Shown here: piece after piece, positions 2,929 to 48,383 of the stretch
Numbering within the stretch: position 1 is the stretch's first letter
How the letters are laid out: each line of letters opens with the position of its first letter
Origin: Lunularia cruciata
Lineage: Eukaryota; Streptophyta; Marchantiopsida; Lunulariales; Lunulariaceae
Reading direction: 5' to 3'
DNA length: 64,000 bases
Assembly: GCA_948567375.1 (NCBI GenBank)
Contig: OX419758.1
Coordinates: 40,315,473-40,379,472, forward strand
Made by a program: the position numbers and the translations under genes
Notes under the pieces: generated by a model
Database searches by the model: none
What the model was told of the DNA's origin: nothing
The model's input: only the letters and a program-made list of their open reading frames with translations

Positions 2929-5214
2929 ATGATTACCGTATCGGCCGTCTCTGCCAGGAGATTCCGGAGAGAAAAGACTTCATCCTTCAAGAAGGTGTTT
3001 ACATTCTTTATTCTGACATCGTTGGTTCTTCTGCTCTCTGCTTTTTCTGTTGCGAATTGGTTCTCAATATTTCCGGATTTTATTTCCAAGAAGGGGATGA
3101 AGACGTCGTGTGTTAACTTCACGGACCCACAGAGAGCGAGGTATGACTCGTTGAAACTTCTGCCGGATGGGGAGAAGTACATGTGGTACTCCCCACACGA
3201 AGGATTCAGTAACCAAGCTCGGGAACTGGGAAATGCACTGGAGATAGCGATGCTGCTCAATCGGACTCTAATCCTGCCACCGGTGGTAGATCACGGAACG
3301 GTGAAATTTGGAAGGTGTCTCAAACCGCGCTATCCAAGCCAGAGAAAGCTGAAAGAAAGATCATGGAGTGCAGTGCGTAGACATATTCTAGAAACCAGGT
3401 TTCCCATCTCCATCTCTTGACAGCTCTTCTGCTTTCAGACATTGTCACCTACGCTCCTTGAATAATAGGGGTCAGTTCTTGGTCACAATACGAGAGCACT
3501 GTTTCCTCTCTTCGGATGGATTCTGAAAAACACGTACATAGTTCTGTTTAGTTCATGAAATAATTGCGTGGTTTTGACAGCTAATAGGTCAGTGTGAGGA
3601 GTGATACATACCCCCGTCACTTTTCGTAACACACGCTTTTGGTCGCAGGGTCCGTTAAAGAAAATCTGAAATATCTGACATTCTTCTCCTCTACTTGAGT
3701 GGCCAACACTTCTCTGTCCAGAGCTTTCCGGGCACATATTCATCCTCGGAAGGGTCACATTGTCTGCTTCTAGTGAGCCTGGTTTTGAAAACATTTGTAG
3801 GCATTCTTATTCTTTACTTCATGGTTTCTCGGAAATATTGGATCTTTCAGGCAAGACACCATAGAACATCGGCAAATTTAATCGCGAATATTGAAAAGAT
3901 CAGCATCTGAAAGTCTAGACTAGGTTACGAAGATCTGCAGGGTACATTCATAAAGATCTGCAGCTCCTTGGCGTCAGGTCTAGATGCCCATGAATGATCA
4001 GGTGATGTTCTTAAACGCTATCCGAATTGTCTCCTCCCTCTGGTCGAAACTTGGACTGAAGTGAAGGTGACATTTGGTTGTGCAGATACGTTTCCATCGC
4101 AGATATTGTGGATCTGCGTTCGATCAGCCCCAGTTTAGTCAGGACAATCGACCTGCGAGTGTTTCTGGCACTGTGGTGCGGTCTAGACATCACCCCAATA
4201 TGCTCTGGACCAAAATGCAGAAGCTTGGCGGACTCACTCTCTCCACATTGGGGCTCTATGGCAGTTTGTAGACACAGACTCTTCCCCTCCGAAGAAAGTC
4301 CGTCGTGCATGGTTTACGAGGTTGAAGATTACTGTCCCACGACAATCTGGACTTATGGGGAGACTCCATCCACTCGGAATTATCTCGAGCATCAGTTGAT
4401 GCAAAAGATGCGCAAGGATCCCGATTTGTTCAATAACACAAGTGTGATGGCTGCCAATTCTGAGTATGGACTAAAGGTAATTCGGAAGGATATTGTGCGG
4501 TCTCTAGGCTCTGGTTCAGAAGCTGATAGGTTCTTTCTTCTTTCCTTTGGCAGCTTGTTTTCACGAATGTACAAGCATATGGAGCTCAATGTTAATCTGA
4601 GAGCGCCAGACGGGGACCCCTTCATGGCGACCAAGCTGCAGGCGATAAAAAGTGGACACTCGTTTACAGTGGAGATTATGAGAAATGCTCGAACTTTTGT
4701 TGGGAAGAAACTTGGTCAGCGACCTTATTTCTGTGCGCATGTGAGGCTGGCTGACGGAGCTTTTCTCAACATTTGGGACAAGATATTGCCACCCTTGAAA
4801 AAGAAACTGGAAGAACTGGCGAATAGGAAGAAGTTAGATGTTTTCCTCATGACCGACCTAGCACGAGAGAAGTGGAAAGGAACAGTTTTGGAAGAAATAA
4901 ATGCCAATGACCAGTACGAAGTGCACACTTTGGACGGACAAGAAGACTTCATCACCCGAACAGCTCAGCAACTGATGGTTTCTGAGCATGGAGTCAAACT
5001 CGGATTTTTCCCAGGAAAGGTCAAATCATCAGGTGAAAGTCGACAGTCGGTGCAAAAATATGTTCCGAATGTTCGGCTCTATCTTGAAGAGGTGATATGT
5101 ACCTGTGCAAGTTTGGGTTTTCTGGGAACGTTTAGGTCCACTATCACAAGTAATATCAACGATTTGAGAAACGCGAGCTTGTGTCCAGTACACGATTTCC
5201 GGTGGTCTCTTTGA
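2929..5214 (+). CDS. GDP-fucose protein O-fucosyltransferase family, two exons
   Basis: Predicted type II membrane glycosyltransferase of the plant O-fucosyltransferase family, expected to transfer fucose from GDP-fucose in the Golgi. Exon 1 is 2929-3398 and exon 2 is 4086-5214; the intron 3399-4085 has CAG/GTTTCC at the donor and TTGTGCAG at the acceptor. Joining them keeps frame and gives 532 residues, normal for the family. Residues 24-44 form one transmembrane helix after a basic tail. Family landmarks are HEGFSNQ (90-96), ILNRT-like LLNRT with PPVVDH behind it, YVSIADIVDL just after the junction (158-167), DLRVFLALWC (179-188), HVRLADGAF (375-383; the family's H-x-R donor-site region) and CASLGF near the C-terminus. 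The ATG at 2929 is the first in frame; the open frame upstream begins at a GTG. Acceptor substrate and exact subfamily are not readable from sequence. Confidence 0.88.
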
Positions 5215-9378: not shown

Positions 9379-9463
9379 AACACAATTTTTTTCTTGTATT
9401 ATGCTTTCCCACCACCAAAAAGCTTGTTTGCATCCCGTGATGATGTTGATAATATGCTTTTAT

Positions 9464-9696
9464 TGTTAGGTTTTACTCTTATGCCTTAGGGTTACCTTGT
9501 ATTTGGGATGGCTCACTCACAGGTTTACAGTTAGAGTGGACTGAGAGAATGTTGGAGCACCGGATTTGCATGACAAATATGGTGGTGAGCCTGATTCAAT
9601 AAAGAATTCCCGTGGACATAACGTCACATAGAGGTGAACCACATATCTCTGTGTAATGTGTGTATGTCATTTTGGTCTTTGGTCTGTATTCAAACA
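9464..9696 (+). repeat. Copia 5' LTR
   Basis: Aligns by eye with 17034-17281 along its whole length, from TGTTAGGTTTTACT to the final ACA. Small indels account for the 15-bp length difference, for example an extra 'gaagcattcccgt'-like insertion in the right copy. Confidence 0.88.
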
Positions 9697-9698
9697 AA

Positions 9699-9714
9699 TG
9701 GTATTAGAGCTAGG
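9699..9714 (+). other. Copia primer-binding site (initiator Met tRNA type)
   Basis: TGGTATTAGAGC lies two bases past the 5' LTR. It is one base away from the TGGTATCAGAGC used by plant Copia elements that prime with the initiator methionine tRNA. Confidence 0.85.
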
Positions 9715-9914
9715 TTTAAGAGACAAGAGTATTGCTCACTCAGCTTACAAGGAGTAATCAAAGGAAATCAAGGGCAGCACTTGGTCTGAGGAGAGCCACA
9801 TGAATCAAAGACAAAGAGGACTTGCATCACCCATTGGCTTTGATTGTGAGGGACTGATGGGAATTTAGGGAAAAAAAGACAAAAAAGAGAGGAGAAAGGA
9901 GTACGTGAAGCAAA

Positions 9915-13133: not shown

Positions 13134-14240
13134 GTGTTGAAAGACACTACAGAGCCTTACATTGGCTTCTCCACAAAGTGTGGAGAAGCCAATGTAATTA
13201 GGTCTCAAGATGGGATGATTACTGTGTGGCATTCACAGCTAGGTCATTTGAGTGAAAAGGGTTTGGCTGTCTTGAGAAGAAATGACTTGCTATATGGCTT
13301 GGAGACTGTGAAGTTGGATTTTTGTGAGCATTGCATCTTTGGAAACATAACAGATCTATTTTTGGAGTGGGGACCCACAGTTCCAAGGGTCTAATGGAGT
13401 ATGTACATAGTGATGTGTGGGGACCATCCACTATACCTTCACACTCTAGAAAATTTTACTATGTGATATTTATTGATGATTACTCGAGGTTTATGTGGAT
13501 TTATTTCAGGCACCACAAGTCTGAAGTTTTTGCCACTTTCAAGAAGTGGAAGACCCAAGTCAAGACTCAGATCGGGAAGAAGGTGAGGTATCTAAGATCA
13601 AACAACTGTGGGGAGTATGTCTCTAGAGAGTTTCAGGCGTACTATACAAAACAAGAGATAACTCGCCACCTTACCACAGTATACACTCTGCAACAAAATG
13701 GTGTTGCTGAGCGGCTCAATCGGATATTGTTAGAGCATGCACGTAGTATGTTGAGCAAATCAAAGTTGCCACATGAGTTTTGGGCAGAAGTTGTCAACTC
13801 TACAACATATGTGGTAAATATTTTTCCATCCAATGCAATCAACTTCAAGACGCCTCATGAGTCAAAGTATCAGCAACCAGCTGATTATGGTAGATTGAAG
13901 ATATTTGGTTGTGATGCATATTCACTCATACCTAAGGAGAATAGGTCCAAGTTGGATGCTAAGTCAAAGAAATATGTTTTTCTTGGCTATGAAAGTGGAG
14001 TGAATGCTTATAGGTTATGGGATCCAATAGCATGTAAGGTTGTGATCAGTAGGGATGTATCTTTTAATGAATCCAGATCATTCAAGGAGGGGGAGAATGC
14101 TCAGGCTCCCAACATTGACAAAGGCAACTCTCCCACCCTAGATCTAGGTGAGGAGGGGATTGGTCACTTAAGTAATGAGGAGGAAGGAGGTGCTCCTATA
14201 GCAAATTTCTTGAGAAGCAAGAACAAGTGGAGCAAGTAGT
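13134..14240 (+). pseudogene. Copia integrase, one catalytic Asp lost
   Basis: The gag-pre-integrase zinc motif (HSQLGHLSEKGL ... CEHC) occupies about 13228-13340. The rve core then runs in one long frame (13331-14239). The first catalytic Asp is in HSDVWGP. The second, normally in RSDNGGEY, reads RSNNCGEY, an Asp to Asn change. The Glu is kept in NGVAERLNR. The frame runs on through GYESGVNAYRLWDP, typical of the integrase C-terminus of Copia. The enzyme would insert element cDNA into chromosomes; this copy should be inactive. Confidence 0.85.
13157..13197. repeat. Perfect 19-bp inverted repeat, 3-nt loop, in Copia pol
   Basis: TTACATTGGCTTCTCCACA (13157-13175), loop AAG, then its exact reverse complement (13179-13197). 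It lies in the linker between protease and the integrase zinc motif and is read through by the open frame. Confidence 0.95.
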
Positions 14241-17018: not shown

Positions 17019-17033
17019 AATCAAGGGGAAGTT
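17019..17033 (+). other. Copia polypurine tract
   Basis: AATCAAGGGGAAGTT immediately precedes the TG that opens the 3' LTR, the expected place for plus-strand priming. Confidence 0.65.
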
Positions 17034-17281
17034 TGTTAGGTTTTACTTGTATGCCTTAGGGTTACCCTGTATTTGGGATGGCTCACTCGCAGGTTTACAG
17101 TTAGAGTGGAATGAGAGAATGTTGGAGCGTTGGACTTGCATGACAAATTTGATGGTGAACCTGATTCAGTAACGAATTCCCGTGAAGCATTCCCGTGGAT
17201 GTAGCCTCACATAGAGATGAACCACGTATCTCTGTGTAATGTGTGTGTATGTCGTCTTGGTTTTTGGTCTGTATTCCAACA
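17034..17281 (+). repeat. Copia 3' LTR
   Basis: Matches 9464-9696 from TGTTAGGTTTTACT to the terminal ACA, with a small insertion near 17180. Confidence 0.88.
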
Positions 17282-17352
17282 TGGATGTATTAGAAAGAGG
17301 ATTAATGGTCTTGTATAATTTTTTAGAAGGTTTGTATATTTATTCAACATTT

Positions 17353-18852: not shown

Positions 18853-19282
18853 TGTCATGCCATTTGTAGTGTCGTATCTAGATTGCTCGGACAGTGGAGT
18901 TCCAATGATAGTAGTTAGAATTCTTTCAGTAGTTTCTCAAAGATTATTTTCTAACGGTCAAATTTTGTGTTTAGGGTATTGACTTCACCGTGGGGCCTAC
19001 TGTCACTTTGCACCGTCGAGTGTGCCATCAACGAGATTGTTAGAGTGTTAGACAGAGGGTATACTTTTAAAGTGCAGCTCTAGAGAGTTCACTTCTCTGA
19101 TGTTGAGCCTTTGAGTTCCTGGCTATGGTGGACAGAGGCCGGCGAGTATCACCTGAATTCTCTTAGCTAGAGTGTGTGTGACTTGATTGTAATCAGTGCC
19201 TAATTATTGGCAGTTTATAGAGTGATAGATCAAGTATTGATCTGAGTTGAGTTGAGTTGAGAAAAGTAGACAATTTGATTAT
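18853..19282 (+). repeat. Gypsy left terminal repeat (5' LTR)
   Basis: Aligns with 28510-28956 at high identity: GCCATTTGTAGTGTCG at the start, TGGTGGACAGAGGCCGGCGAG in the middle and GATTAT at the end. A run of GAGTTGAGTTGAGTTGAG occurs near the right edge. The sequence just past it (TATATCAGAG, 19280-19289) resembles the iMet primer site. Confidence 0.85.
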
Positions 19283-20669: not shown

Positions 20670-21682
20670 TGAGGGAGGAGATTGACTCTTAGTTGGAGTT
20701 TGACACATGAGTTGATTCGATTGAGAGTGCACTTGGTGTGTCCACATTGTTGTTGTGGGACATGGACAAGATTTATGGGGCCTCTAAAGACCTTAGGTGT
20801 TAGTCTAGTACATTGGGTACCATTGAGATGTATGACTTCATCCAGGAGTTTGATAGTTGGTGTGATCTGCAATAGATGCGGAACCTGACTTTGTTTACAC
20901 CTCTCATGGCATGGAAGGAGTTGTTTCAGCATCCGGAGGGTCCACCGATGGATGACTACCATGAGTTCAGGAGAGCTCATTTAGGGGAGATCAAGTTATA
21001 GAGACAGTATTTGTCTCCGAACTATGTCTCTATCACTTCAAGTTTGGTGGTCAAGAGTAGATTGGTTGTACCTACGAGTTCTAGCTCGAGTAGTGTTAGC
21101 TCAAGCTAGTAGAGGTGCACTAGATGGAAATAGTGCTACTACGAGTGGAGGTACCGTTGTAGGAGGTGGTGTGGTACCAAGGTTTAACCCCATGGTAGAG
21201 TTCTTCTTGTGTTTGAGGCAGAACTACCAAGGAGTGCGGACTGACAAGCTGAGGAGTTTGCAAGAGTTCCAGTAGAAGGCTAGAGAGAGCTTACGCGAGG
21301 CATATACTCGCATGAGGTGGCGGATCAGTTTCACTTAGGGAGTTACTGAGGCCCAAGCAGTCCAATTTTGGTATGGGATACTAGACAGTGAGTTGCAATG
21401 TAGAGTTCGTGATGCTATGTTGTTACACCCTACTTTGCTTACTTTGGTAGTGGTCTTTGGTTTGGCTGAGCATATTGAGCTCAATATGGTGGAGGAGAGA
21501 GTGGTGACATCTGGATATGGTAGGGAGACCTCATCCATAGTTATGACTTCTTCTAGAGTGCACCACACCCAATTGGTTTTTGAGGATAGGGTGGACAACC
21601 TAGATCATATGGAGCAAGTGGAGGGCCTAGTGGAGTTAGATCCATACCTTCATTTTTGAGTCAACATCAGCCAGTGAGTAGT

Positions 21683-22078
21683 TGTAAAAGATCAAATCCG
21701 AGGAGGGAAATAGGAGAATGGAAACTCACATTGGGACACTTGAATGAGGGAAAACTCTGATTGCCTACCATGAGCTTCGGCTTTCGTATTTATAGGTAGC
21801 ATACAAGACCCCTGAAGCTTCTCAAGAAGCTTCCTTGAGCCTCTTTCTTGGAGTGCAAGCCAAGTTAACCAAGAAGCTTCCTTCCTTCCGCCTACTTGGC
21901 GTGCAAGCTAAGCTAGTTAGAAGCTTCTCTAGAAGCTACTTGCTTAGGGCGCAAGTTAACTAGTTGGGAAGCTTCCCAAGAAGATTCTTAGATGCTTCTT
22001 GAATATTCGAGGCTATTTTGACTTATTCTCTACTTCGTAAGCCCGACTAACTTCGTCGCTAAACTCCATATTGTCACA
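21683..22078 (-). mobile_element. Second solo LTR, inserted in Gypsy gag
   Basis: The 396-bp insert opens TGTAAAAG and closes GTCACA. Flanks are GTAGT on the left (21678-21682) and ATAGT on the right (22079-22083), a 5-bp target duplication with one change. Gag reading is interrupted here and continues beyond. Minus orientation is suggested by a TATA box (CTATAAATA) on the minus strand at 21787-21795 with regulatory-looking repeats upstream of it on that strand. Confidence 0.7.
21814..21987 (-). promoter_or_regulatory. Heat-shock-element-like cluster upstream of a TATA box
   Basis: Five exact GAAGCTTC units (21814, 21826, 21873, 21920, 21968) and one GAAGATTC (21980) all fit the GAA-nn-TTC core of heat-shock-factor sites. 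They are embedded in three diverged tandem units of about 50 bp beginning GTGCAAGC or GCGCAAGT. On the minus strand the nearest unit is about 20 bp upstream of CTATAAATA. Binding is inferred, not shown. Confidence 0.55.
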
Positions 22079-22821
22079 ATAGTGGTGTTGCTTGTTGGAC
22101 TTGTGGTGGACTTCTCCATCAAAGAGAGTGTACTCAGGGCAGTGGACCTGATACCTTGAGTGCATCACAACCAATACAAAGGCAATGTGAGCATTGCCAC
22201 AGATTTGGTCACACTAGTGATTGATTTTTTGACCTACACTTGGAGTTACGGAGTGGTAGGGCTACTATGGCAGGTAGTAGAGGAGCTCCAGTTCATGGAG
22301 GATGAGGTGGTGGTAGAGGATCCACACCTAGTAGGGGTGCAATACTTGGCCTTACTTTTGATACAACTATGGCTACTTGGATTGAGCAATTGGAGCAAAG
22401 ATTGGCTAGTATGGCTATTGCTTAGAGGAGATCAGATTTGGGTGTTGAGGCTTCCACTTCATATGTTGGTGACAGAGATGCTTTGGACTTCATGTGCGGA
22501 GCAGCACAAGTGGATCCATCTGCAGCAATGACTAGGAGTGTAGTACGTGCTCTAGAGCCTAGAGGAGCATCAATGGAGTTGGACCTACAGAGAGGAGAGG
22601 TTGGGAGACAGGTCAGACTTCCCCAATCTTTCATGCTATCTGAGGCAATGCAAACAACATCCATGGTTCCTAGACGTCCCAGTGTAGGTGTGGTAGGTGG
22701 TGATAGAGCGCATGATGGACTACCTACTTGTCAACCACCTGCTACTACACAGACTAAGTCTAGCACAATGTTAGGGGCGGCTTAGCTGATTATGCATTGC
22801 TCTTTGTTTTAAGCCAATGAC

Positions 22822-23691
22822 ATGTTTACATTGGGAGTTGACCTAGCTCCAGTGTTCCGGTTGGCTGCCACGCTGTGTGAGAGTAAGGATGATGCAATTT
22901 CTGCTACTAGAGCAGAGGTGGTTGATAGTGGGGCTGACTCGGTTGAGGAGCATTGGATCCATTCAGCGACTAGTGGTTTATGGCAAGTAATAGCGCCTAG
23001 ACCGGCCTTTGAGAGAGCACGGTTCACACTTGCTGTTGTCTTATTGGATAACCAAAGGAAGATTTTCCATTTGGTGGGACCTTTAGGGAAGGTCTATACA
23101 CCACAAAGAGTCTTGTTAGACTCTAGTGCGCAACCCCTTATGTTGGGGAAGGCTGCAGTTGTCGGTATGGAGTTACGGAAGACCAATGTAAAGAAGTGTC
23201 CATTTCAGATCCAGACATCTCTAGGTGGTGGTTTGACAAAGTACATCACATGCGGAGAGCTTGTTGTCCAAGTTCAGCTTGGTCATCCAACTGATAGCTT
23301 GGTGGTGAAAGCTCAGGCTATTGCAACAATAGCTGAGTCATATGATGTGCTAGTTGGGGGAGCAGTGTTATACCCCATGGGTTTCAATATTGACTATTGG
23401 GAGGAAACGGCCTCCTATAGACCAGGTTGGCATTCTGGTGAAGGACAGGTATGTCGTCTACCAGTACACTTTAGTAGTGGCAGTCTTGGCTCACTACAAT
23501 CCGGGACCATGGCTACATCAGTTTTAACTTTTAGTGGTGTAGTTACTTGGCCTGGTGACTTGTTAGAGTGGAATGGCAATGTAGAGGATACTCCAGTACC
23601 AAAGGAGATCACTCGGATTTGGAGTACAAGTGGGATCGTTCCATCCACCTTGGATGTTCCATTATGGAGTTCAGAGGCGGCGTTGAAGTAA
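22822..23691 (+). pseudogene. Gypsy aspartic protease region (longest open frame of the element)
   Basis: A 289-codon ATG-started frame survives intact. The protease active site reads LLDSSAQ (Asp at 23119-23121) where the family has D-S/T-G-A, and the fold continues as LVGGAVLYPMGF. The N-terminal third is gag/linker. The frame ends at a TAA at 23689-23691, just upstream of the methyltransferase motifs, which continue in the same polyprotein order. Confidence 0.75.
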
Positions 23692-23699
23692 CATGCATA

Positions 23700-24800
23700 T
23701 CAGTTGGTGCATCAGGCTTGGAGTGGAGCCTTCATACCATCAAGAGATGAGTGTGAGGATGAGCCTCCAGAGTTGATTACTTTGACATCTCTGGATACCA
23801 CACTCATTGCTTGGCAATATCTAGTAGAGGGGATATGTCTATTGGAGTTGTTTGGTAAGATTAGCACCGGACTAGCTACAATATTACTGGCGGGTATACA
23901 AATACAAAGGTACTTGTATGTAGAGAGAGATGAGATTGCTAGGCAAGTCTCTCTACATCATGTGGCACACTTGGCCTATTGATATCCAGAGTTATTATCG
24001 ATGTCAGCAGTCAAAGGTTACTAGAAGGCCCTACTTGCAGACATTTCCTTATAGAGGGCGCATGATCTAGAGAGATATGGACCTATTCACTTGGTGATTT
24101 TTGGATGGCCATGTTAGAGACATACACATGTTGGCTGAGGTTTGGGTCTTCAGGGTCCTTGTTCTTGTGTGTTTTGGGAGATGTTACGGATACTATGACA
24201 TCTCTAGGTTCATCAGTCCGTTTCTCCAGCTTACCTTTTGGAGAACGTTCCTTTGATGGGTGATTCTTGCACCAGAGTGGTGGCGAGTACACATCAGGTC
24301 CATTCTTGGATGGTACCTACTGTATTGTTAGATGTAGCCAGAGTGGGATCACGGGCTCATTGTCTTTGTCTTTGTCTTTGGTGGACAAACCTCTTACCCA
24401 GAGAGGTTTTACAGCGTGCTTATGATGGGATTCAATGACTTGACCACATCCTTGTTGATGATATCTTGGATGTTGAGCATCTCAAACAGTGGTAGTGGCT
24501 GATATGTCACCTATGGCAGTGGTGAACCTATTTGGATAGCCTAGAGCCGCATTTCCTGCACTCATGCTTTTTGAGAGAGAGGACCTAGACTTGTTTGGGA
24601 CTCACAATTACAGTAGTTGGTGGAGCCCAACGTTGATGAGAGAGAGCAAGCGATGGGTTTTTGCACCGGTATTACCACTATTCCAGCAGTGTCAGAGGCA
24701 TCTAGGCATCAAGTGTTAGGTCAAGCTATGGACTTGAACTGTTTGACCTAGATTGTGAGCCTTGGCTTGGCAGAGCAGCGTAGGATGCACTTGATAGGCA
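23700..24800 (+). pseudogene. Cytosine-5 DNA methyltransferase domain inside the Gypsy polyprotein
   Basis: C5-methyltransferase motifs occur in canonical order. Motif I is LLELFGKISTGL (from 23839; S-adenosylmethionine binding). Motif II is YVERDEIAR (about 23917-23943). Motif IV is GWPC at 24103-24114, keeping the catalytic cysteine of the Pro-Cys pair but followed by TAG where Gln is expected. Motif VI is LLENVP with the ENV catalytic Glu at 24241-24243. A motif VIII-like Arg-rich stretch ends in WWTN (about 24330-24390) and is disturbed by a TCTTTG repeat expansion. Motifs IX-X are AMGFCTGI and VLGQAMDLNCLT (24645-24752). It lies between protease and RT, with TAG/TGA stops and frame changes, so this copy is dead. 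The active ancestor presumably methylated cytosines; sequence preference is unknown. Confidence 0.82.
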
Positions 24801-25130
24801 TCACCACTCGGACACTTGTGAGCCCTGTGCCTATCAAGATGATTCAAGCACGTGGTGGGGGCGATGGACCGAGTGGGCATGGTATTTTTGGGGCACATCC
24901 ACTAGCTATTAGGGAGAGTGGTCTACTTGGAGTCCATCTAGGTGAGCATGGGCTACTTGGATTACACCCTTGGTCCACTTGGGATGCAACTAGAAGACAT
25001 GTGTAGCATGCAACCAGAGTGGAGGGAGTTTTTCACATAGAGGTTGGGACCTCTAGTGGTCGGGGGCATGACACTATTGCTCCCAAGGGCCCAGTGTAGC
25101 AACTAGTAAGTACGTCTTCCACTCCTACTA
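24801..25130 (+). other. Gypsy linker between methyltransferase and RT
   Basis: A glycine-rich low-complexity linker (GGGDGPSGHG-like) with stops and no recognised domain. Confidence 0.45.
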
Positions 25131-26010
25131 CAGCTACAAAGGATACTTGGGAGCTAGATCTTGGACCCAAGCTTACTGGAGAGGAAAGACGGAGGGTTTG
25201 GAGGTTCTTGAGGAGCCACACGAGTTGTTTTGCCTTCTATATGAAGGATTTGGGTGCTTTGAAGGGACATGGTATACGGATTGAGTTGATTAGCGATACA
25301 CCAATTTTTTGACTTCCTTATCGATATAGTGAGATGGAGAGGACATTGATTTGGAGCCGGAGTAGTGACCTTTTTGAGGTTGGTTTGGTGGAGATTTCAC
25401 ATGGAGAGTATGTATCAGCGACAGTGATGCTAGCCAAGAAGGATATGCATGGCAACTACACAGATAGGCGGATGTGTGCAGATTACCGCCCTATCAACCA
25501 ATAGACCAAGGTTGATCGGTATGCCATGCCTACACCGGAGGAGATTTTTGATGCGATTGGGCATGCAAAAGTCTTCAGTACTTTGGATCCTCGAGCGGGA
25601 TATTCTCAGTTTCCGATCAAGGAAGAGGATAAGTCCAAGATAACATTTTGGGCTATTGATCCTCATGACAAAGATGTGTTATATCAGTGGAGGTTCTTAC
25701 CATTTGGGTTGAAGAACGGTCTTGTTGAGTTCTAGAGGGTCATGGATAGGATCCTAGCTGGATTGGATTTTGCTCGGTGCTATATTGATGACATTTTGGT
25801 CTATCGCACTACTGTGGAGGAGCATGAGAGACAGTTGTTGGATGTGTTTGAGAGGTTGAGATCTCATGGACTCAAATTACATCATGGGAAGTGTAAGTTC
25901 TTCCACGAGCAGGTTCAGTATTTTGGGTCACACTATCTACCTCGGAGGACTTGGTGTTCAACAAACCAAGGTAGATGCTATTGCACGTATTCCTCGACCT
26001 ATGGATGTGA
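25131..26010 (+). pseudogene. Gypsy reverse transcriptase
   Basis: Typical Gypsy RT blocks are ADYRPINQ (TAG follows), DRYAMPTPEEIFD, STLDPRAGYSQFPI, WRFLPFGLKN, and the catalytic YIDD at 25781-25792 followed by DILVY. A frameshift near 25930 moves the rest (GLGVQQTKVDAIARIPRP) to another frame. In-frame stops at about 25503 and 25734 are TAG; the second stands where the family has EFQRVMDR. Confidence 0.9.
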
Positions 26011-26600
26011 TTAAAGTGCAAGGATTCCTTGGGTTGGCAAACTTCTATCGCCGTTATGTTAGAGGATTTAGTGCCATTGCCAAGGCCTTGACAAAGTTGA
26101 CCAAGCTTACACAAGAGTGGTGTTGGGGAGATGAGCAAGAGAGACCTTTTGTAGAGCTCAAGGAGAGGTTGACATTTTCTCCTATTTTGAGGAGACCGAT
26201 CAAAGGACAACCATTTTAGGTTCATATTGATTGGAGTATGTTGGGGCTTGGAGCGGTGCGTGCTCACCCATCATGATGATGAGAGGAAGGAGTTTGTGGT
26301 GGCCTATGCTAGTCGCTCCAACAATTCAGTAGAGGCAATGTATAGTTCATATGAGGGAGAGTGCTTGGCAACCGTTTGGGCAATAGCACATTTCCGATGT
26401 TACCTATTTGGTAACCCTTTCACTCTCATCACTGATCATCAGCCACTGAAATGGTTGATAGAGTCCGACAAGCTTTTAGGGAAGCTTGCACAATGGGCTT
26501 TGATTTTATAGGAGTATGATTTCACAATTGTTCATAGACCTAGAGTGGTGAACCGTGATGCAGATGGGTTGAGTAGAAACCCATGTCCCAGCTAGCAGGA
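26011..26600 (+). pseudogene. Gypsy RT connection and RNase H
   Basis: The connection domain GFLGLANFYRRYVRGFSAIA is followed by RNase H landmarks VVAYASRSNN, YSSYEGECLA and TDHQPLKWL. It ends near DADGLSRNPC. TAG stops occur at PF-stop-VH (about 26218) and LIL-stop-EYDF (about 26510), both at positions where the family has Gln, and one frame change lies near 26265. Confidence 0.88.
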
Positions 26601-26886
26601 TCAGATCGGAGCATGTTGGCATGGTGAGACAGATGAGGAGATGGCGCCAGGTTGGCATGCATTGGCCTTTCTGTGTATATTTTCAGAGGCTTTGGTGGTA
26701 TCCTTCTCAACACATACAAGAGGAGTTATTGAGGTTATAGATCTAGAGAGTGAAGATATTGGTACAATTTAACGAGACATTCATGATGATGTCTTAGTGA
26801 TGGACTATCTTTGCACTGGTGTTGTGGGTGGCAGAGTTGGGGCCAAGGAGAGAGACAATGTTCTTTAATGAGCCAGATGGTTCAGA

Positions 26887-27830
26887 TTGGATGGCAGACA
26901 CCTTTTGCGTGTATGGGAGGATGGTAGAGTGCAAGTAGTACCACTTCCATCTCAAAGACCACAATTGGTCCGTCATGCTCATGAAGAGTTAGGATATTTT
27001 GGAGTCAAGCGTACATATAGCTTACTCCAAAGTCATTATTGGTGGCACGGAATGCAGACTGAGGTACAACAGTTGAATTGCCCAATGTGTGGTTTGTGAC
27101 CGAGTTAGAGCATCATTCAATGCTCCTATGCCACAGTTACACCCATTACCTATCATGGGACTAGGTTACCATTGGAGTTTGGACTTCATTGGACCTTGGA
27201 CGACTTACCGTTAATCGTGAAACATCATCAGTATATTTTGGTGATGGTGAAGCACTTCTCTAAGTGGATTGAGTTGGTGGCACTTCTTGACAAGTCTAGT
27301 GAAGGGACAACTTACTCATTCTTGGATCTAGTTCTTAGTCATTTTGGTGCACCAACTGAGGTTTTTGAGGGTTTTGACTGATCAAGGTACACAGTTCTTG
27401 GAGGAGTTTTAGGTCTTGTGTGACAAAGCTTTGATTGATCATTATACTACATCTTGAGATCACCTTGAGGCATATGGCTTAGCAAAGATAGTGGTTCAGA
27501 CGATGAAGAGAGGATTGCAAAAATATGCTTTGTAGAGAGGCCACTTAGGAGATTGGGATCTCTAGTTACCTTGGTTGGCCATGGGGTATCGGTTCAGCCG
27601 GCAAGCCTCCTTAGCATCCTTCTCTTTGTACTTTCTACTCTATGGACGAGATCCAAATTTACCTACAGCCATTTGTCAAGATGCTATTGTAGTTTTGGAC
27701 TTGGATGACCCCGATGTATGGATGAGCACATATTCTCAACGGGAAGAGATCTTTTGGAGAGTGATGCCGATGGCCTTTGAGAACTTGGCGATTGCTCAGC
27801 ATAGAGATACTTTACGCTATGCTACCATTT
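26887..27830 (+). pseudogene. Gypsy integrase
   Basis: The H2C2 zinc domain is HAHEELGYFGVKRT ... NCPMCG (about 26970-27098). The catalytic core has HWSLDFIGPW (first Asp, about 27165-27195), TDQGTQFLEEF (second Asp, about 27378-27410) and the Glu region EAYGLAK (about 27465). The conserved PWLAMGYRFSRQASLASFS and LLYGRDPNLP follow at 27570-27665. Stops and frameshifts interrupt it throughout. Confidence 0.85.
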
Positions 27831-28070
27831 GAGGAGGAGGTTATTGACCCTTAATCCATCAATTTCATCCAGGAGACTATGTATATCTATAGCAGACAAC
27901 ACCGATGACACTTGATGTTTTGACATGCTTTGCCATCCGGAGTCCTTGTGTTAGAAGGATGTGATGGTGTTGTTTGGAAGGATCATGTGCGCAATTGTGC
28001 GCCATGCCACCTCCCAAACATTGATGGTACTATGGACCTAAGCTTGGCACTTGTAAGTGTAGGCTTGAGG

Positions 28071-28205
28071 TGTATGTTATGTGGTTCTTCTGGTGGAGCT
28101 GCTACTATGTTAGTGTGTGATAGCTGTTTGAGAGGATGGCATATGGCATGTATGACTCCTCTCCTCACGGTGGTTCCTTAGGGACAATGGTTATGTTCTA
28201 GATGT
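28071..28205 (+). pseudogene. PHD finger at the C-terminus of the Gypsy polyprotein
   Basis: Cysteines and histidine follow the C4HC3 PHD pattern: C-M-L-C (28071-28082), C-D-S-C eleven residues later, H-M-A-C, then W-L-C-S-R-C ending at 28205, with the Trp two residues before the penultimate Cys typical of PHD fingers. One TAG stop lies inside (VVP-stop-GQW, 28179-28181). Upstream is WKDHVRNCAPCHLPN, the end of the integrase tail. PHD fingers usually read histone H3 tails; this position is where chromoviruses carry a chromodomain. Confidence 0.8.
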
Positions 28206-28509
28206 ACTTGACCTATAGCTACTTCATTCTTTATATGGTATAGATTGCGGACAAGTGACTAACGATGGGGCTCCATAACACCCGGCCTCTTGATCTTTGC
28301 CCATTATAGGGTATACCATATACTTAGAGTAGATGGCTATCTGGAGTTAGAGGGACCTAACAACCAGTTAGAGGGACCTAACCGCCAACTAGAGTGGGCA
28401 ATTGTGGCACTTTAGAGTCTATTTATGACTTATGTGTGAGTTGTGCTTCTATAGTGTATGATGTTGACAGCGATGTATATTGTGTAGCGATGTATATATG
28501 CACAACAAC
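28206..28509 (+). other. Gypsy 3' non-coding end including repeat X copy 1
   Basis: Contains a duplicated AGTTAGAGGGACCTAAC near 28346-28390, a purine-rich AGAGTGGGCAA, then the 107-bp repeat X (28401-28507) that recurs directly after the right terminal repeat. Confidence 0.6.
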
Positions 28510-28956
28510 TGTCACGCCATTTGTAGTGTCGTATCTAGATTGCTCGGACATTGGAGTTCCAGTGATAGTAGTTAGAGTTATTTCAGCAGTTTCTCAGAGA
28601 CTACTTTCTGACGGTCAGATTTTGTGTTCAGGGTACTGACTTCATGGTGGGGCACACCGTCACTTTGCACCGTTTGCACCATCGAGTGTGCCATCAATGG
28701 GACTGTTAGGGTTTCAGACCTAGCTCAAGTCCAAGGGGTATCTTTTCGAAGTGCAGCTCCAGAGAGCTCACTTCTCTGATGTTGAGCCTTCAAGTTCTTG
28801 GCTATGGTGGACAGAGGCCGGCGAGCGTCAACTGGATTCTCTTAGCTAGAGTGGGTGTGGCTTGACTGTAATCAGTGCACAATTGTTGACAGTTTATAGA
28901 GTGACAGATCAAATACTGATCTGAGTTGAGTTGAGAGTGGTAAACAATCTGATTAT
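28510..28956 (+). repeat. Gypsy right terminal repeat (3' LTR)
   Basis: Matches 18853-19282; it has an extra segment near 28715-28740 (GACCTAGCTCAAGTCC) absent or reduced in the left copy. Confidence 0.85.
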
Positions 28957-29061
28957 TGTGGCACTTTAAAATCTATATATGACTTATGTGGGAGTTGTGC
29001 TTTTATAGTGTATGATATTGATCGCGATGTATGTTGTGTAGCAATGTATATATGCACAATA
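28955..29061 (+). repeat. Repeat X copy 2, directly after the Gypsy LTR
   Basis: ATTGTGGCACTTTAAAATC ... ATATGCACAA matches 28401-28507 with only scattered differences. The two copies flank the right LTR as direct repeats; the left LTR has no X beside it. Confidence 0.85.
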
Positions 29062-30521: not shown

Positions 30522-33500
30522 TTATATCAATCAAGCTGGACGATTCGATATGGATCATTTCATCTTATAAAAGAGAAAAGGACTGGATATACCAAGGGTA
30601 ATCTCTATTTCTGTCCTTATTCAAGTACAGGTATGTCCCACATTTCGTGGTTACTAGACCCCCATGTACTCAATCTATGTCCCAAGAGTAAGTCCTCTTC
30701 CTTTCGTCTTATTGATCTGAATGCGATTCCACAATATGGAGGACTTACATATTTCATATAGGCGTGCTATGCTAGTTGGAAAAGGAAGTAAGGTATGTTG
30801 ATATCTAGCAGCCTAAATAAGGTAAATCGCTTCATAGACTCAGTCTATTATAGTTTAACATGAAGATTGTGTTCACATCAAATTCCAAACTCGAGGTTTG
30901 AGATTAGTACATCGATGGTTAATATTTGCAACAAATGCATTGTTCAAACTAACAATATGTATCAGGAGCAGCATACATCGTTGAAAACATGCGACTACCG
31001 ACCTAATTACTTCCATGATTTAAGCATAAATACATGTGTCATGCACCTAAAAGAGAAGAAACGAGGAATAATGTGTCTTCTTAAATTTTGAACTTGTATA
31101 AATATAATTCCACCGAATTTCTTTTTAATCTCGTTAGCTTGAAGTCTCATTCTTGGGTATAATGTATTTCTTACAAAAGATATGAATATTATCAGTCAAT
31201 TTGGCATTTTGACGGTCTTCTCCATCTATACCATTTTATTCTTCTGGCGTGAATCAACTGATTCCTCACTCCATTTTACCATCTTCCGGACAACAAGCAA
31301 GAGATCTATCTCTGGAATCAATCCTGCTGACTCTTGTTTATATTTAAGACTGGGGAAATATCTGACTTGCTTCTCCGTTAGTTTGGTTAAAGATGGTGAA
31401 GTTATTTTGGACATAATTTAAACATAATTTAAAAGGAAACTAAAAGCAAAAACGTTCACTTTTTAAATAGCCGTGACAGTACTAAACGGACATAGATATA
31501 TCGCTGAATCAGGAAAAAAACAAACAAACACAAAACACAAACCATGCGTGAGAGAAATTCTCTTTACTTTAATTAGTTACCCAGCTCTGCAAGCCATGCA
31601 AGAAATTACTCTCTTTTCTTCTGCCTCAGCTCTTCCACATATGTACAAAACCTTGTGCCGCATCACCTCTTGGGATACAAAAAGACAAATAAAAAGCAGG
31701 CGACTGCGTAATAAAAACGAAGGATGGGAAGAACCAATCAAGCTATACAAGGGAGAGACGAAAAAGATAAAATGGAGCTAAGTCCTAATAAATTCTATAC
31801 AAAAAATCTGCCCTATTGGACCTAAGATATCCGAGCTATGCAAGTTGTAAGATCTACAAACAACTGGAACATTAGAAGAAACATCACCTCATGTGATTGC
31901 TCTACTATGTATTACACCAACCAGTACTCTTTGTAGAGCCATGTACACATGCTGTCTAAAATATTCTACAAAGTATGAGAGTGAAAATGGTACCCCTAGT
32001 GCCTAACATGATAAGCTCTCGGTGCACTCCCTTGCAAATGTATCTAACATTGTGTTCATTGCTCCATATAACTCCAAGGTTTGAGGAACAGAGAAATGAC
32101 CTTGCTGCATGTATAACTCCAATGTTAGAGGAACAAAGAAGTGACCTTGCTTCATGCCCTTATAGAAACAAATAAAATATAAACTTATGAAGGAGTAACT
32201 TCAAATACACGCTACCCATGCATGAGAGCACTCGAGGGCACGGACGTCACCATATCTGGATCACGAACAGCTCGGGAATAAATACCCAAACAACACTCCT
32301 TTGCGTGGGCTGAAAGGGGTCCCGGTACAACTGAAATCTTGTGACCTTGCAAAGGTAAACCTGAAATAATATGGTCAGTGTTCTAGACCTACACACACAA
32401 AAAGAGGCAGTAGAAAGTTGCAAGAACTGCCTCGTGTCTATCTTGCACAATTAGTTTACTGTTCATCTCTCTTTCGTTGATCTGAAGTTAGCAACAGTAA
32501 AGCAGTTTACAGTTGGACCGAAGAGAGAATTGATCACTAATTCCATACTTAGACAGAGATTATTGTTTGAAACCTCACCGGAGTTAGAGCAGAAACAAAT
32601 TAGAATTCCTGAGTGATGTGGGTATTGTTGGACCTAAAAGAGAGTTTCTTTAACCTGAAGATTACTGTTCTGTTATTTTCTTTTCTTCACATGTTCTTGC
32701 GGCATTTTGACCAAAGTTTTCACCATGGACAGAAGTTATGGCACCTGAAGATGACTCCTCTAGCCCGCAACGGAGTTACAGATGACTTAGTGTACCACAA
32801 AAGGAAAAGAAGAAAAAGCAGACAGCAAGTGCACCCGAGAGTGACTTAGACGCTAATTACACACTAAAATGAAGATTGGTTGACACGTCAATGGAGTTAG
32901 AAATGACCACAGTTCTTTGGTGATGTTGACTATAGTTGAGCCGGGCAATTCGGGCAACCGAACTGAGCCTGATCAGATTCTGAAGAAAGACAGTCTTTGA
33001 GAGCATGGTGTGATGACGTCTGGACGGCGGGGTGTGTCGTGAGGCCGGCTTACCGCCCGCCTGCCAGGAGGAGACAGAGATTATCTATTAGCCATCAGTG
33101 GAGAGGAGGCGACGAGGAGCACGAAACGACTCATTGGTTGAGTAGAATAATGGATGGATAAATGGGCAAGGGTTGGGGAAGAGGAGGAGGAGGAGGTGGT
33201 TCAGTTCGCCGCAGCGGCAGTAGTTATGAGCACGGATCTGCTTTTGTTGTTATTCTGTTCCGTTTTGGTTAAAGTCGTAGTACTGTAGTGCTTTGAGAGT
33301 AGTCAATGTTTAGTCTTTTATTATTGTGGTAAGGGTGGATCTGTTGTTGTGGGCTCCAGAATGAAGAAAGAGGAGGACGAGCATGTCATTTCTTGCCTGC
33401 ATACTCGTGGGCGATGATAGATCTGTTAGAAGTTTGTAGTCACGAAATGGTGAACAGGCACATAATTGACGGTGGTGGATGTGGACGTGCCTGTTCAAGC

Positions 33501-35110: not shown

Positions 35111-37526
35111 ATGGAGGTTGCTAAAAAAGCCAGCGAAGAGACAGAAGTAGGTGCTTGCTTCCCAACAATTGCAATCTCGCAATTGACTTACTCTAGATGT
35201 ATTGCTCCGCGCATCGCGTGTAACCTGGTCCTCGTGGCTGAAGAAGATTACTTCTTTTCATAGCCCGGCAAGTGATTAAGCAGGAACTGCATGCTAAGAT
35301 AGTTGTGCCTGCAATGTGAAAAGGTTTGTGAACCGATTTGAGCGTACTTTGAACCTCTAGAAGGTCTTCATTTCTATCTATGACCTATCTAGGACATCTT
35401 CAGGGGTGCTTTATTGTTTCTTTTTTAGTTCTGCATGGCAGATGTGCAATAGTGTTCTAAAGAAGTCCGTCTATGTTTGATTGTTTTAGTTGGCCTTAAC
35501 TTTTAATTTCAAGTTCTGCAAACATATTACACTATGTTTTAATTTCAAGTATGTGGGAGCATAATTCATGGGTGTTGCCTTCACAGTGATGCACAGATCG
35601 ATTGTTGATTCAAGGCTTAATCCCCTTCTGACTCAAGTGTCGCTTGTTGGTGCAGGGTTCTCAGTCACACAGGCCTTTGACTTTGTACAGGGTGATTCGG
35701 GGCATTCTGTGCCTTCTGATTCTTCTATCAACCGCGTTCGTTACTCTCATCATTCTCGGCCCAATTACGTTTATTTGCCTGAGACTTTACAGCGTGCACA
35801 CAAGCAGGAAATGGATCGGAATTATATTCGGACACTGGCTCGGGATGTGGCCATATTTGTTTGAAAAGATCAATGGGACGAAGGTTGTTTTTTCTGGGGA
35901 CAAAGTTCCAGTTGGGGAACGGGCTTTCGTTATGTGCAATCATCGCACCGAAGTTGACTGGATGTACATATGGAATCTAGCAGTCAGAAAGAAACAAATT
36001 GGGTACACAAAGTACGCTCTGAAGAGCAGTGTTCGGAATGTGCCAATATTCGGCTGGGCTTTCCATGTCCTGGAATTCCTTCCTTTGGACAGAAAATGGG
36101 AGTTGGATGGACCTGTTATTGAAGCATATCTCAAGAGTTTCGAAGATGCTGTAGAACCATTTTGGTTTGTACTTTTTCCCGAGGGCACCGATTTCACGTA
36201 ATCACTCCTCTCTGTTTTTCCGTTTTTCTATATTATGGCTCTCATTGTAATGGAAACATTCCTTTTCCTGTACTCAGTCAGAACGTTCCGGCTTCTCTCC
36301 TATCATTAATCAGTTTCCCTGTGGACGCTGCTATGATTGGAACAAGTTGGGATAGAGCATGAACTGACTGAAGTGTCGTTTTGTTGCTGTCGGGATAACG
36401 TTTTCAAAGCTTCAGTTTGAATCACGTTTCAACACGTTTCAATGTTTCGATTGATTGGTTCTCTCTCCAGCCTAATTTTGAAGCATGAAAAGTTGAGTTG
36501 TCCCGCCCGTAACAAGATCGTTAAAACTTTTGCAGAGAAGAGAAGCTAGCTAAAGGCAACGATTATGCAAAAAAGATGTCTCTTGGTTTCGAACTTCGCC
36601 ACGTACTTCTCCCTCGGACGAAAGGTTTCACAGCGTGCTTACCACTCCTCAGCGAATCTGTGAATGCAGGTAAGAGTTGATTCAGTGGGTTGATCCAGGT
36701 TGTCTTGTATGTTATAGAGAGAATCCACTGTTCGACGCTGCTGTCTAGAAGTGCGAGTTGTTTAGAGAGTCCGCTATGGTTAAAGTCTGGAAAACATGGC
36801 AACGTAGTTTGTCCGGGACAAATGTGAAAAGCTATGACCTGTGAGCTTTCAATTTCTTCACAGGGCAAGTACTAAAGCTAACAGGTCATGACTTTGGAGA
36901 GGTCTTGCCAGTCGAGATTGAAGAACAAAACGCGAGCTACTTCGGTGGAAGCGTCCACTTGTTTTGACTCCGTATTGAACTCTATTGTTGGTAGAATCTC
37001 TAAATTTTACTTGTAAAACCTTCTAAAAGGAAACACTCGAGTAGTTGATACTCTGGGCTGATGAGATCCGTGGAAAGTTTCAGTTTCTCTTACTTGACAG
37101 CTCGTTTGTGCAGTTTATGACCTGACTATGGCCTACAAGTATCGCTCCCCGCTCTTTATCGACAATCTCTTTGGGATCGATCCTGCTGAAGTGCACATCA
37201 ACGTCCGGCGCATCCCCATAGAGGAGATTCCTACTTCAGAGGACGAAGCTTCATCCTGGCTCTATGACGCCTTCTATCAGAAAGATCGCCTTCTGATGGG
37301 TTTTCAGAGAGATGGTTCCTTTCCGGGTGTAATGGATGAAGGAGAGTTAGACACGCGCGTATTCATCATACGACTAGTAGTTTTCACCACTTTGAGCTTC
37401 CTAGTGCTGAGATTTGCATTGTTTCAATATTGGTGGCTACAAGTCTACGTGGGGTTTAGTTGTGTAGCCCTTCCCACCTTGACCTTTTTCAACATCAAAC
37501 CCTCTCTACTCGATTTCAGACATTGA
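35111..37526 (+). CDS. LPAT: 1-acyl-sn-glycerol-3-phosphate acyltransferase, plant LPAT4/5 type, four exons
   Basis: It acylates lysophosphatidic acid to phosphatidic acid, likely at the endoplasmic reticulum. Exons are 35111-35146, 35656-36197, 36536-36669 and 37114-37526; every junction is GT/AG and the joined frame gives 374 residues, close to the 375-378 of Arabidopsis LPAT4/5. Motif I is NHRTEVD (His108, Asp113; H-x4-D), motif III is FPEGT (186-190), and a motif IV-like LLPRTKGF is in exon 3. One or two hydrophobic helices precede the catalytic domain and two more close the protein (VFIIRLVVF ... SCVALPTLTFF). The 12-codon first exon is inferred: its ATG is the first in frame, it ends at GAA/GTAGGT, and it joins in phase to a residue pattern (GSQSHRPLT) that matches the family start. 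All catalytic motifs are intact, so this is probably functional. Confidence 0.92.
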
Positions 37527-41765: not shown

Positions 41766-43280
41766 CTAGACGTTGGCAAATGGATTCAGGCCTGGCATAA
41801 AGTTATATCCCATCCACCTTCTGAAATAGATTTCAGGATCTGGAATGGGCGGAAGCAAAGTCCACGTATGACTTTTGATGTGATAACTCCAAACTGTCAT
41901 AGAATTTTGAACTGACTCGTACAAACTGAAGTAAACTAGATCCCCGCTGCAACAGGTGCTGCGAACTGAAATTTTGCATCGCTCTTTGTAGCAGAAATTT
42001 GTCGGACTTCTTGACCATGATTCTCTAGGCACTTGCAGTGTTTCTTGGTTGATCGGATGAAACAATACTTCATAGTTTGGTCGTGCAGATGCAGATGTGC
42101 TGAATCGCTGCCCATGCACCAGCAACATGAGCACGAGCTGACAACCATGAACGTGAAGACTCGAATAAACTTGAGCTCTAAGATCTATGTGAATTGAAAG
42201 AGTGGTGTATGTCCATACTGCCGTCTCCACATTGAATCTCCATATACAGCGTCTGAGAGAGTTGGTTTCGTACTCTAGGCAGAAGAGATTACCATCTAGG
42301 TAACAGATCTCCGATTGCAGAAACTGTTTTCCAGTGATTTGGTACAAAGGAGGCCGCTTCACTTTGGACTCTATAAGTTTCCATGAACCTATCTTTGGGT
42401 CATAAAGTTGAATTGTGACCGTGATATGTTCTATTTAGCCCTGCAGGGAGAACAACAGTACTACTTTGTAGTCGAAACGACCCTCTGTAATCACGAAAGC
42501 ATATGAGGGTTGCTCTCCACCACCAGGAAGAGCTGGAGGTGGCAGATCGGCCCAACTACCTGTGAAGAGATTCGATATTCGCACCTTGGTTTTTACACGA
42601 TCTAGAGTCCCGTGCCTCCATACTCTGCAGAGAAGACTTCCTCCAGAACTTACAAGGCTCCTTCTCGTCCGGATCCCAATATCTGTGAAGCTCGCTGGTG
42701 GAATCGATCTAGGGATCTCGATCTTATGCCACTTGTGAGATCTTCTTTCGTAGCCTAACAGGTTCGATGAAGCAGGCAATGTGGGACCAAAAACTGGCCA
42801 GTTTAGAGAATTTGACAGAACTTCATGATGGAATGAGGTGCAGCCAACAGGGATTGGAACTTTGTAAAGTGTGGACATTGATAGAGCCCCTGCCTTATCC
42901 AACATTTTTATGGCCCATGACTTAGACAGTAAACGAGCTTTCAGAATAAGAGGATACGGTATTTTCGCAATTGCCTTCTCAACCATAGCTTCGGGAAGTT
43001 CAAAAATCACCCCAAGTATCTCATCAGCTAAAGTCCACTCAGGTGTAACCCAATTACACCAATCAGGTGTGTATCTTCTTTCATGCATCCAAATCACCTG
43101 AACTGAATTCTCCGAAGCTCCTCCATTTTGTCGACTGTAAGTTTGTATTGCTGAATTGATTATTCCTGCATTATCCTCAGCTTCTGCTTCAGGAGACACG
43201 AGCATATCATGTTCGCCACTGTAACAGCATATGCATCTTCCTGCCCTCTGACCCCTGTTTTGCTGCACACGCACATTCAT
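41766..43280 (-). pseudogene. F-box protein gene with one in-frame TAA
   Basis: One minus-strand reading frame runs from the ATG at 43280 to 41766 (505 codons including the final stop), interrupted only by a TAA at 42435-42437 (codon 282). Residues 94-122 form an F-box (LPEAMVEKAIAKIP ... RLLSKSW), which would dock to SKP1 in an SCF ubiquitin ligase. Later repeats of hydrophobic strands ending in Trp (LYDPKIGSW, WRFNVETAVW, WSYHIKSHTW) suggest a kelch-like/F-box-associated beta-propeller for target binding; two of these motifs fall after the TAA and the third close behind it. No other in-frame TAA, TAG or TGA lies in the frame. It could be a recent pseudogene, a truncated but active protein, a small unrecognised intron, or a base error. 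The ATG is the first after an upstream in-frame TGA. Confidence 0.8.
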
Positions 43281-44623
43281 TTGCTGTTCAGCAATTCTTG
43301 CGCTATCTGCACCTTTTTGTAATCCTGATTCTCCATCTATCTCTTGCCAGTTTCAAGTCCTTGTTGCTTGTGATCAACTGAGAGAGATTTCGATGCTCAG
43401 GAAAGAGAATTCTGCAGATCTCAGAGAGAACATTTAAAGGTGGGTGTCTTACCAACGGGTGAATTCAACGGATGGATCATACCAAATTGCAGAGATACAA
43501 GAAGCGCGGAATTTAAACTCGAAGGTATCAAGGGCTTGTGCTCTGTCTATTCAAATTGTACAGAAGTGACAGATTCCAAAGAACTCGTATTTCCTCCCGT
43601 TCCATCCTGTCGCTATGGATCTAGACCTGCATTACTTTCTTACATAGAAGGTTAACGTTCGCAACGGAGAACTCTACGAGCTGCCTGGTCTGACTACCCT
43701 GGAGCATCGTGTACTAAAAGCTTAGTTTCATTCCGAGTCACATTGTTGTATAACTTCAATGCTACACAATCACCACTGGAGCTGCTGACGAACCACAAAA
43801 GGCAGGAAATACGGAACTTGTTCACTCTTTGCTCCAATCCATAACTTTACCGCATTCAATACAGCTTTACATAGCCGGCTTAATGTAACTAATGGATACT
43901 CACCGACTCCTCTTACTGGTGAGTGATACTGCATCCGTCAGTTAATGTATTCATCACAGTGACACAGGCTTGGACAAGGTGATCCGATGCCTGAGTTAGA
44001 AACTTTTGTGTCTTGGTACGTGTAAACATAGTTGTGAATTAGTAGCAAGAGATAGTCACGTACTTCTTGAAATTGCAAATTGTTTCAAATCTGAGATGAA
44101 TTGGCAGTCCACATGCATATTGCATGCATAAGGTCCTCCTTGATTCATAAGCTGGAACGCGTGCGCATATGACATGTTACGACCCTCTCATTCATGAATA
44201 AGAAGAAGAAAAGGAAGGTTCAACAAGGAAGCAGAAACCAAATTTCACATCTTGCCAATGTATAGAACAAGAAAACTGCTGACGATAGGAATGGAGAAGA
44301 ATTTCAGCGGTGTATATTTGCATACATACACGGAAATCATCAAAGGCAAATACCACTAGAAATTTTAAGTTTCTGGTCATTCACGTCCAGATTTTTTGTG
44401 ATTAAATCACCCAAAGTAGTACTCGTAAACTTAATGTATTCAATTTATATACAGTGATACACAACCAAGTTGCGAACAGGTTGATGTATGTTTGCCTTAA
44501 ACCTAGAGTCTCCACCGTTTGCAGAGGTTCAACTTCCTCACCGGAGTTGCTCTTACAGTTGCTGAACCACAGCCAAAGTTCACATGATGAATCCTCCTTG
44601 TGTATGTTCAGATCTACACTTAC
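43281..44623. other. F-box upstream region, no gene seen
   Basis: Probable promoter/leader of the F-box locus, then the putative intron downstream of the orphan exon. ORFs 43440-43655 and 44192-44380 resemble nothing known to me. Confidence 0.35.

Positions 44624-48345: not shown

Positions 48346-48348
<3 letters not shown>

Positions 48349-48382: not shown

Positions 48383-48383
<1 letters not shown>

Follow-up and report, generated by a model that had tools for sequence, protein, structure and literature searches.

A predicted DNMT3-class DNA methyltransferase encoded with Gag in a Gypsy-type element of the liverwort Lunularia cruciata

Transposons are usually the targets of DNA methylation, which raises the question of why an element should carry the enzyme for this modification itself. 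Such a case is found in a stretch of 64,000 nucleotides of the liverwort Lunularia cruciata (assembly GCA_948567375.1, contig OX419758.1, positions 40,315,473 to 40,379,472), called the window in the following. It contains a retroelement with a Gypsy-type Pol, in which the original prediction, made from the letters alone, had placed a cytosine-5 (C5) DNA methyltransferase between the protease and the reverse transcriptase (RT). The window element is a dead copy. According to the reading we favor, with a probability of roughly 0.6, the intact element would produce a DNMT3-class methyltransferase at the level of Gag and methylate its cDNA or integration site, a PHD finger would steer its insertion, and each new copy would arrive pre-marked.

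The element and its methyltransferase

The canonical C5 methyltransferase motifs are indeed present in the window, and the domain order in the window and in its relatives places them between protease and RT of a single Gypsy-type element. Because the window domain is broken and reaches only 13 bits against the profile PF00145, the claim rests on related copies. We therefore searched the assembly from which the window comes (565.8 Mb, 74 contigs) with the PF00145 profile; 123 of 2,161 candidates scored, and their open frames reach a length of 1,428 codons. Among the 30 loci listed, 25 align as copies of the element's methyltransferase domain, and the other five (L001–L004 and L015) resemble host genes or fragments by eye, L001 being tested separately. 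From the same assembly, 20 stretches of 10 kb were fetched, each around a long-frame copy; as they were picked for long frames, this sample is biased to young copies.

The longest frame, with 1,428 codons, encodes in one piece the methyltransferase behind a Gag region, a pair of CCHC knuckles and a protease motif, DSGA. It matches PF00145 with an E-value of 1.9e-7, and the Gag model fits weakly (E 0.07, below the cut-off). The proteins of the frames before and behind an in-frame UAG stop are referred to as P0001 (Gag, protease, methyltransferase) and P0002 (RT to PHD finger). The second frame codes for RT, RNase H, integrase zinc finger, integrase core and PHD finger, in the same order as in the window, and P0002 gives the Pfam matches RVT_1 (1.4e-31), RT_RNaseH (2.6e-36) and rve (9.8e-13) in the succession that defines a Gypsy-type Pol. 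No tyrosine recombinase family, as expected of DIRS or PAT elements, is among the Pfam matches of either frame; a DDE integrase is present instead. From before the methyltransferase to behind the integrase or the end of Pol, all 20 fetched copies align to the window in one piece.

Judged by its sequence, the element enzyme is a cytosine-5 methyltransferase of the DNMT3 class with its motifs in canonical order. Its best structure-chain match is DNMT3A (3.2e-17), followed by chains named DRM2 (1.0e-10) and HhaI (4.3e-9), and its predicted fold is DNMT3-like, as the first 34 of 50 rows of a predicted-fold comparison (VIA-align) were DNMT3. An origin from DRM was rejected because DRM2 scores lower than DNMT3A; the motif order of DRM2 presumably also differs from the canonical one. 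DNMT1 and CMT chains are not among the chain matches up to E 0.01, which makes an origin from MET1 or CMT less likely. Besides a DNMT3 gene, the host genome contains genes assigned to DRM and CMT by their motifs. A recent capture of the host's own DNMT3 was likewise rejected, since in a short-region tree with four cellular rows the host exon L001, identified as DNMT3 by the separate test, groups with DNMT3A and the host DRM pieces, apart from the element enzymes; the label of the latter pieces we take from their motif.

Relatives and history of the enzyme

Protein searches for relatives yielded 43, 112 and 194 matches (the best 120 of the 194 listed). Among the matches listed, the named relatives belong to the liverworts Marchantia polymorpha, M. 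paleacea, Riccia sorocarpa and Calypogeia fissa, the mosses Sphagnum fallax, S. troendelagicum and S. tenellum, and the green algae Closterium sp., Monoraphidium neglectum and Cymbomonas tetramitiformis; most others are metagenome proteins, and no row is named Klebsormidium, most rows being nameless. One polyprotein of the family (P0109) is filed under a Minisyncoccia bacterium metagenome-assembled genome, probably by eukaryotic contamination of the bin. The catalytic residues are kept throughout: the cysteine of motif IV, the glutamate of motif VI and the second arginine of motif VIII occur in 135 of 135 domains, gaps excluded. Compared with Marchantia, P0001 and P0002 show 64–72% identity in the methyltransferase, 60–62% in Gag, 46–58% in the protease, 41–49% in the linker and 68–77% in RT (for Marchantia P0004: methyltransferase 72, Gag 62, protease 58 and linker 49%; for Marchantia P0008: RT 68 and RNase H 80%). 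On these alignments, the methyltransferase appears more conserved than Gag, protease and linker, and close to RT.

The enzyme occupies two different places in these polyproteins. It precedes RT in 30 of 135 cases (layout 1: bryophytes, Closterium and some nameless rows) and follows RNase H in 105 (layout 2: Monoraphidium, Cymbomonas and most nameless rows), the fullest form of layout 2, RT-RNase H-methyltransferase-integrase-PHD, being present in 67 of 145 proteins. A methyltransferase tree of 78 rows (all 30 of layout 1 and 48 of layout 2, 45 of these drawn randomly from 73) and an RT-RNase H tree of 53 rows (7 of layout 1, 46 of layout 2) each put the two layouts on opposite sides of one branch, with support of 98 and 99, respectively. 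Because both trees split alike by domain order, enzyme and polymerase seem to share a long joint history. In a third tree of a short region (about 155 columns), 30 element enzymes were separated from four cellular rows (the host DNMT3 exon, DNMT3A and two host DRM pieces) with support of 99/98. The placement of the domain proposed at the outset was carried out against DNMT3 and DRM rows.

The two places in the polyprotein might also reflect independent captures of DNMT3 by bryophyte-type and chlorophyte-type elements rather than one old capture. For dinoflagellates and the charophyte Klebsormidium nitens, independent captures were inferred by de Mendoza et al. (2018, PMC5890265), and the layout 2 protein P0040 is placed, weakly, among the layout 1 rows of the short-region tree. 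We nevertheless regard this as rather improbable, because all 30 sampled element enzymes group together against the cellular rows, the methyltransferase and RT trees agree and PHD-bearing members occur in both layouts.

The general idea of such an element is known, and the precedents in dinoflagellates and a charophyte named in the original prediction are confirmed (PMC5890265). The same paper describes KnitGypsy-Dnmt3 of K. nitens, which, by its description, shares with the liverwort element a Gypsy-type Pol and an unrearranged DNMT3-class domain with conserved key residues. The main text of the paper does not mention a PHD finger, and bryophyte elements and a readthrough stop go unmentioned in the parts covered (PMC5890265). 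SymbioDIRS-Dnmt3 of Symbiodinium shares a DNMT3-class domain in Pol and two domain orders, and two tested enzymes of this type methylate CG in yeast (PMC5890265); it is a DIRS-type element with a tyrosine recombinase, whereas the liverwort element has a DDE integrase and 4-bp target duplications. Gypsy elements of orchids also carry a nucleic-acid-modifying enzyme, in their case an AlkB-type RNA demethylase in an extra open reading frame (ORF) (PMC9289625), and a 2025 paper mentions DNMT3 members embedded in retrotransposons of streptophytes and dinoflagellates (PMC12344493). A PHD finger mentioned in a paper on a mosquito Gypsy element belongs to a neighboring gene and is not a domain of the element. 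In the titles, abstracts and passages of the matches listed, with few subscription journals among them, we found no description of a bryophyte or PHD-bearing DNMT3 element. The suggestion that a land-plant copy may be new holds to this extent, but the family is not confined to this genome, with unannotated relatives in Marchantia, Riccia, Calypogeia, Sphagnum and green algae; what may be new here are the bryophyte elements and the PHD finger, since a Gypsy element with DNMT3 has been published before.

The UAG stop and the role of the enzyme

The methyltransferase had been assigned to the same polyprotein as RT. It is part of the element, but a UAG separates it from RT and integrase, and because it lies upstream of this in-frame stop, it would be made with Gag and protease. 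In all 18 copies with an exact upstream anchor, searched with the context left free, TAG is followed by CAGCCA or CAGCTA (two of the 20 were unanchored). A pattern fixing CAGC.AG matched 19 of the 20 copies, every one with TAG, and the remaining copy (L041) has a stop at the equivalent position. Genome-wide, a fixed-flank pattern gave 1,150 matches (control: 0), with TAG in 1,111 of them; as this pattern fixed the context except for one base, the count tests the stop and not its context. It also sets the number of junction copies to at least 1,150, the element thus being abundant in the genome.

UAG followed by CARYYA is the type I readthrough context of tobacco mosaic virus (PMC2754532), and the fetched copies show the same arrangement of UAG, CARYYA and an in-frame extension. 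In single copies, as many as 1,428 codons are open ahead of the TAG and as many as 1,037 behind it, in the same frame and not in one copy; directly behind the TAG, 1,037 codons are open in two of the 20 copies and 59 to 655 in the others. The first methionine follows 41–48 codons after the stop, beyond the conserved sequence leading into RT. Three Marchantia proteins (P0004, P0005 and P0009) and the nameless protein P0003 end 68–72 residues past the methyltransferase (P0001: 93), as a shared stop would give.

Chromoviruses are Gypsy elements with a chromodomain on the integrase, which probably steers their insertion. They share with the liverwort element a histone-reader-like domain at the end of the integrase, whereas the latter has a PHD finger instead, plus the methyltransferase. 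The sequence of this finger resembles the PHDs of CHD4, KMT2D, DPF3, AIRE and UHRF1; several of these, like the ADD domain in DNMT3, bind histone H3 when its K4 is unmodified. In the favored reading, a minority of ribosomes would read through the UAG, and the methyltransferase would be made with Gag at a high level, be packaged and methylate newly made cDNA, either inside the particle or where it integrates. Insertion may be steered by the integrase-linked PHD finger, reading the H3 tail. The likeliest benefit would be that the new copy arrives marked like methylated host chromatin and is tolerated, staying silent in most tissues.

Several observations weigh against this reading. Four non-TAG junctions occur among 100 listed, all of them TAA, the expected decay product, and part of the constancy of the stop in young copies is due to their shared ancestry. 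Five Marchantia gene models (P0006, P0008, P0011, P0013 and P0018) join methyltransferase to RT/RNase H without a stop, through either predicted introns or true absence of the stop, these being protein models only. A test for selection within the genome was marginal for the methyltransferase (N/S 2.22 for singletons and 1.24 for shared changes, Fisher p 0.049, 45 copies), seven shared nonsense changes were found among the 45 copies, and the test was not significant for protease, RT, RNase H, integrase and PHD finger; for Gag, significance was clear (p 0.0007). In the broken gene model P0024 of Sphagnum fallax, identity is 50% in the methyltransferase vs. 79–81% in short RT/integrase pieces. 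The decay of the window copy at CG and CHG sites (see below) is expected from host methylation alone, and when the K. nitens element enzyme was tried in yeast it was inactive, a result that its authors call inconclusive (PMC5890265).

The methyltransferase may instead be kept for self-restraint, silencing the element in somatic tissue so that the host survives and allowing movement only where methylation is reprogrammed. In line with this, the window copy is heavily deaminated at CG and CHG: taking the copy L035 as the older state, 356 of 543 differences between 22,083 and 28,400 are C-to-T or G-to-A, and C-to-T rates are 26% in CG, 26% in CHG and 4.5% in CHH. Methylation is reprogrammed in the Marchantia life cycle (PMC5784723), and slowed transposition is one option considered by de Mendoza et al. 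(PMC5890265). However, the many junction copies look unrestrained, as does the identity of the repeats A1 and A2, which is 96.5–99.7% in 15 of the 16 measurable copies (matches above 80 bases, long-frame picks; L034: 89%). In L032 the match spans 77 bases, in L037, L038 and L046 there is none, and against the 84% of the window copy these values mark the sampled copies as young and the window copy as old. Host enzymes would probably methylate the element regardless, and we consider self-restraint an improbable main purpose.

Still less probable is a methyltransferase serving mainly as a nucleic-acid-binding or chromatin-recruiting module, with catalysis secondary. Its position in the Gag-protease frame, apart from RT and integrase, would suit such a role, but the invariance of catalytic cysteine and glutamate over the 135 domains of distant elements argues against it. 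Finally, a later insertion of some separate element or gene into the space from protease to RT, named at the outset as the finding that would overturn the claim, can practically be dismissed: no such insertion was found, the window's other insert of 402 bases sitting at 21,680–22,081, the junctions are shared by the one-piece alignments of all 20 copies, and Marchantia proteins hold protease and methyltransferase in one protein.

Repeats, neighboring features and meaning

Table 1. Features of the window copy, in window positions.
Feature	Position	Strand	Remark
Left repeat A1 (begins TGTC; internal region directly after)	18853..19281	+	84% identity to A2
Gag (capsid) remnant, two frames	20738..21655	+	76–82% identity to P0001
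402-base insert of unknown kind	21680..22081	.	absent in 19 of 20 fetched copies, i.e., all covering the site
CCHC zinc knuckles	22084..22269	+	
Aspartic protease region	23035..23619	+	DSGA in P0001, DSSA in window; motif-based label, without Pfam match
Decayed, predicted DNMT3-class cytosine-5 methyltransferase domain, frames 1, 3, 2	23800..24817	+	
UAG stop between methyltransferase and RT, then CAACTA (CARYYA readthrough context)	25097..25099	+	
Reverse transcriptase	25328..26099	+	
RNase H	26100..26604	+	
DDE integrase, zinc finger and core	26908..27736	+	H2C2 match in window; rve in P0002
PHD finger ending Pol	28026..28208	+	PF00628, E 1.4e-8
Repeat B1, downstream of purine-rich tract	28402..28507	+	
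Repeat A2	28510..28955	+	
Terminal repeat B2	28956..29061	+	ends GCACAATA in window, mostly GCACGACA in other copies

Two equal direct long terminal repeats (LTRs) were not found in the element, which is arranged as A1-coding region-B1-A2-B2 (Table 1); the term Gypsy-type therefore refers to Pol only. A left A and a right B-A-B are present in 17 of the 20 stretches (one with just 73 bases of the left A), and a B after the left A was seen in none of the 20. The exceptions are L037, without a left A in view, L038, which stops at B1, and L046 with an inverted right A; L038 (near 9325) and L046 (near 9450–9898) are possible recombinants or adjacent insertions. The outer ends are TGTC and GACA. Of 17 printed inner junctions, 11 read exactly GACA-GC-TGTC and the rest differ by one to three bases. 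Among the other copies, three are visible to both ends, and all three are flanked by 4-bp target duplications (CATA, ACTT and TCTT); at the window copy the flanks (aggt, aaat) do not match. Only ATCAGAG after A1 fits the initiator-tRNA primer site and would be no more than a candidate for it. L042 has five extra bases at the A2/B2 junction, the same as those following A1, as joined cDNA ends might leave. On one reading, the inserted form may correspond to a two-LTR circle (LTR = B-A) opened at the inner junction. Split repeats are shared with KnitGypsy-Dnmt3, whose repeats are described as DIRS-like and whose domains as Gypsy (text and legend of Fig. 4, PMC5890265).

Taken further, and only tentatively, the elements may represent a single old green-plant lineage that writes DNA methylation and reads histones, with a methyltransferase at Gag level in front of a regulated stop and DDE integration from permuted repeats. 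In bryophytes and some relatives, the enzyme in the particle would then mark the cDNA before insertion, and the DDE integrase would use a circularly permuted form, e.g., the two-LTR circle opened at GACA-GC-TGTC. Integration from such a form is not known of ordinary LTR elements.

The window also contains a Copia-type element flanked by a pair of 84% alike repeats (9463–9708 and 17033–17294), with an integrase core and an SH3-like domain (Pfam) at 13328–14239, and a Copia-type Gag ORF at 61866–62552 (PF14223, E 6.4e-24). Host genes comprise one like a plant fucosyltransferase (2821–5214; weak O-FucT match in the first ORF, the rest by eye), an acyltransferase gene (35632–37526; PF01553 and PF16076 in two ORFs) and a Kelch-motif gene on the minus strand (41766–42434), adjoined by an ORF without Pfam match (42435–43352). 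An inverted pair of unknown kind, 80–82% alike and 19 kb apart, lies at 31698–32111 and 51276–51690, and positions 48001–50000 are strongly A+T-rich (GC 0.233).

A successful plant element carries a predicted methylation writer and a histone-reader-like domain itself. Because relatives occur in the model plant Marchantia, the question of why an element would methylate DNA becomes directly testable. One Marchantia study reports five host DNA methyltransferases (PMC5784723). The relatives of the element's methyltransferase domain stand in databases as hypothetical proteins, and counts of bryophyte DNA methyltransferases can miss a pool of transposon-borne genes.
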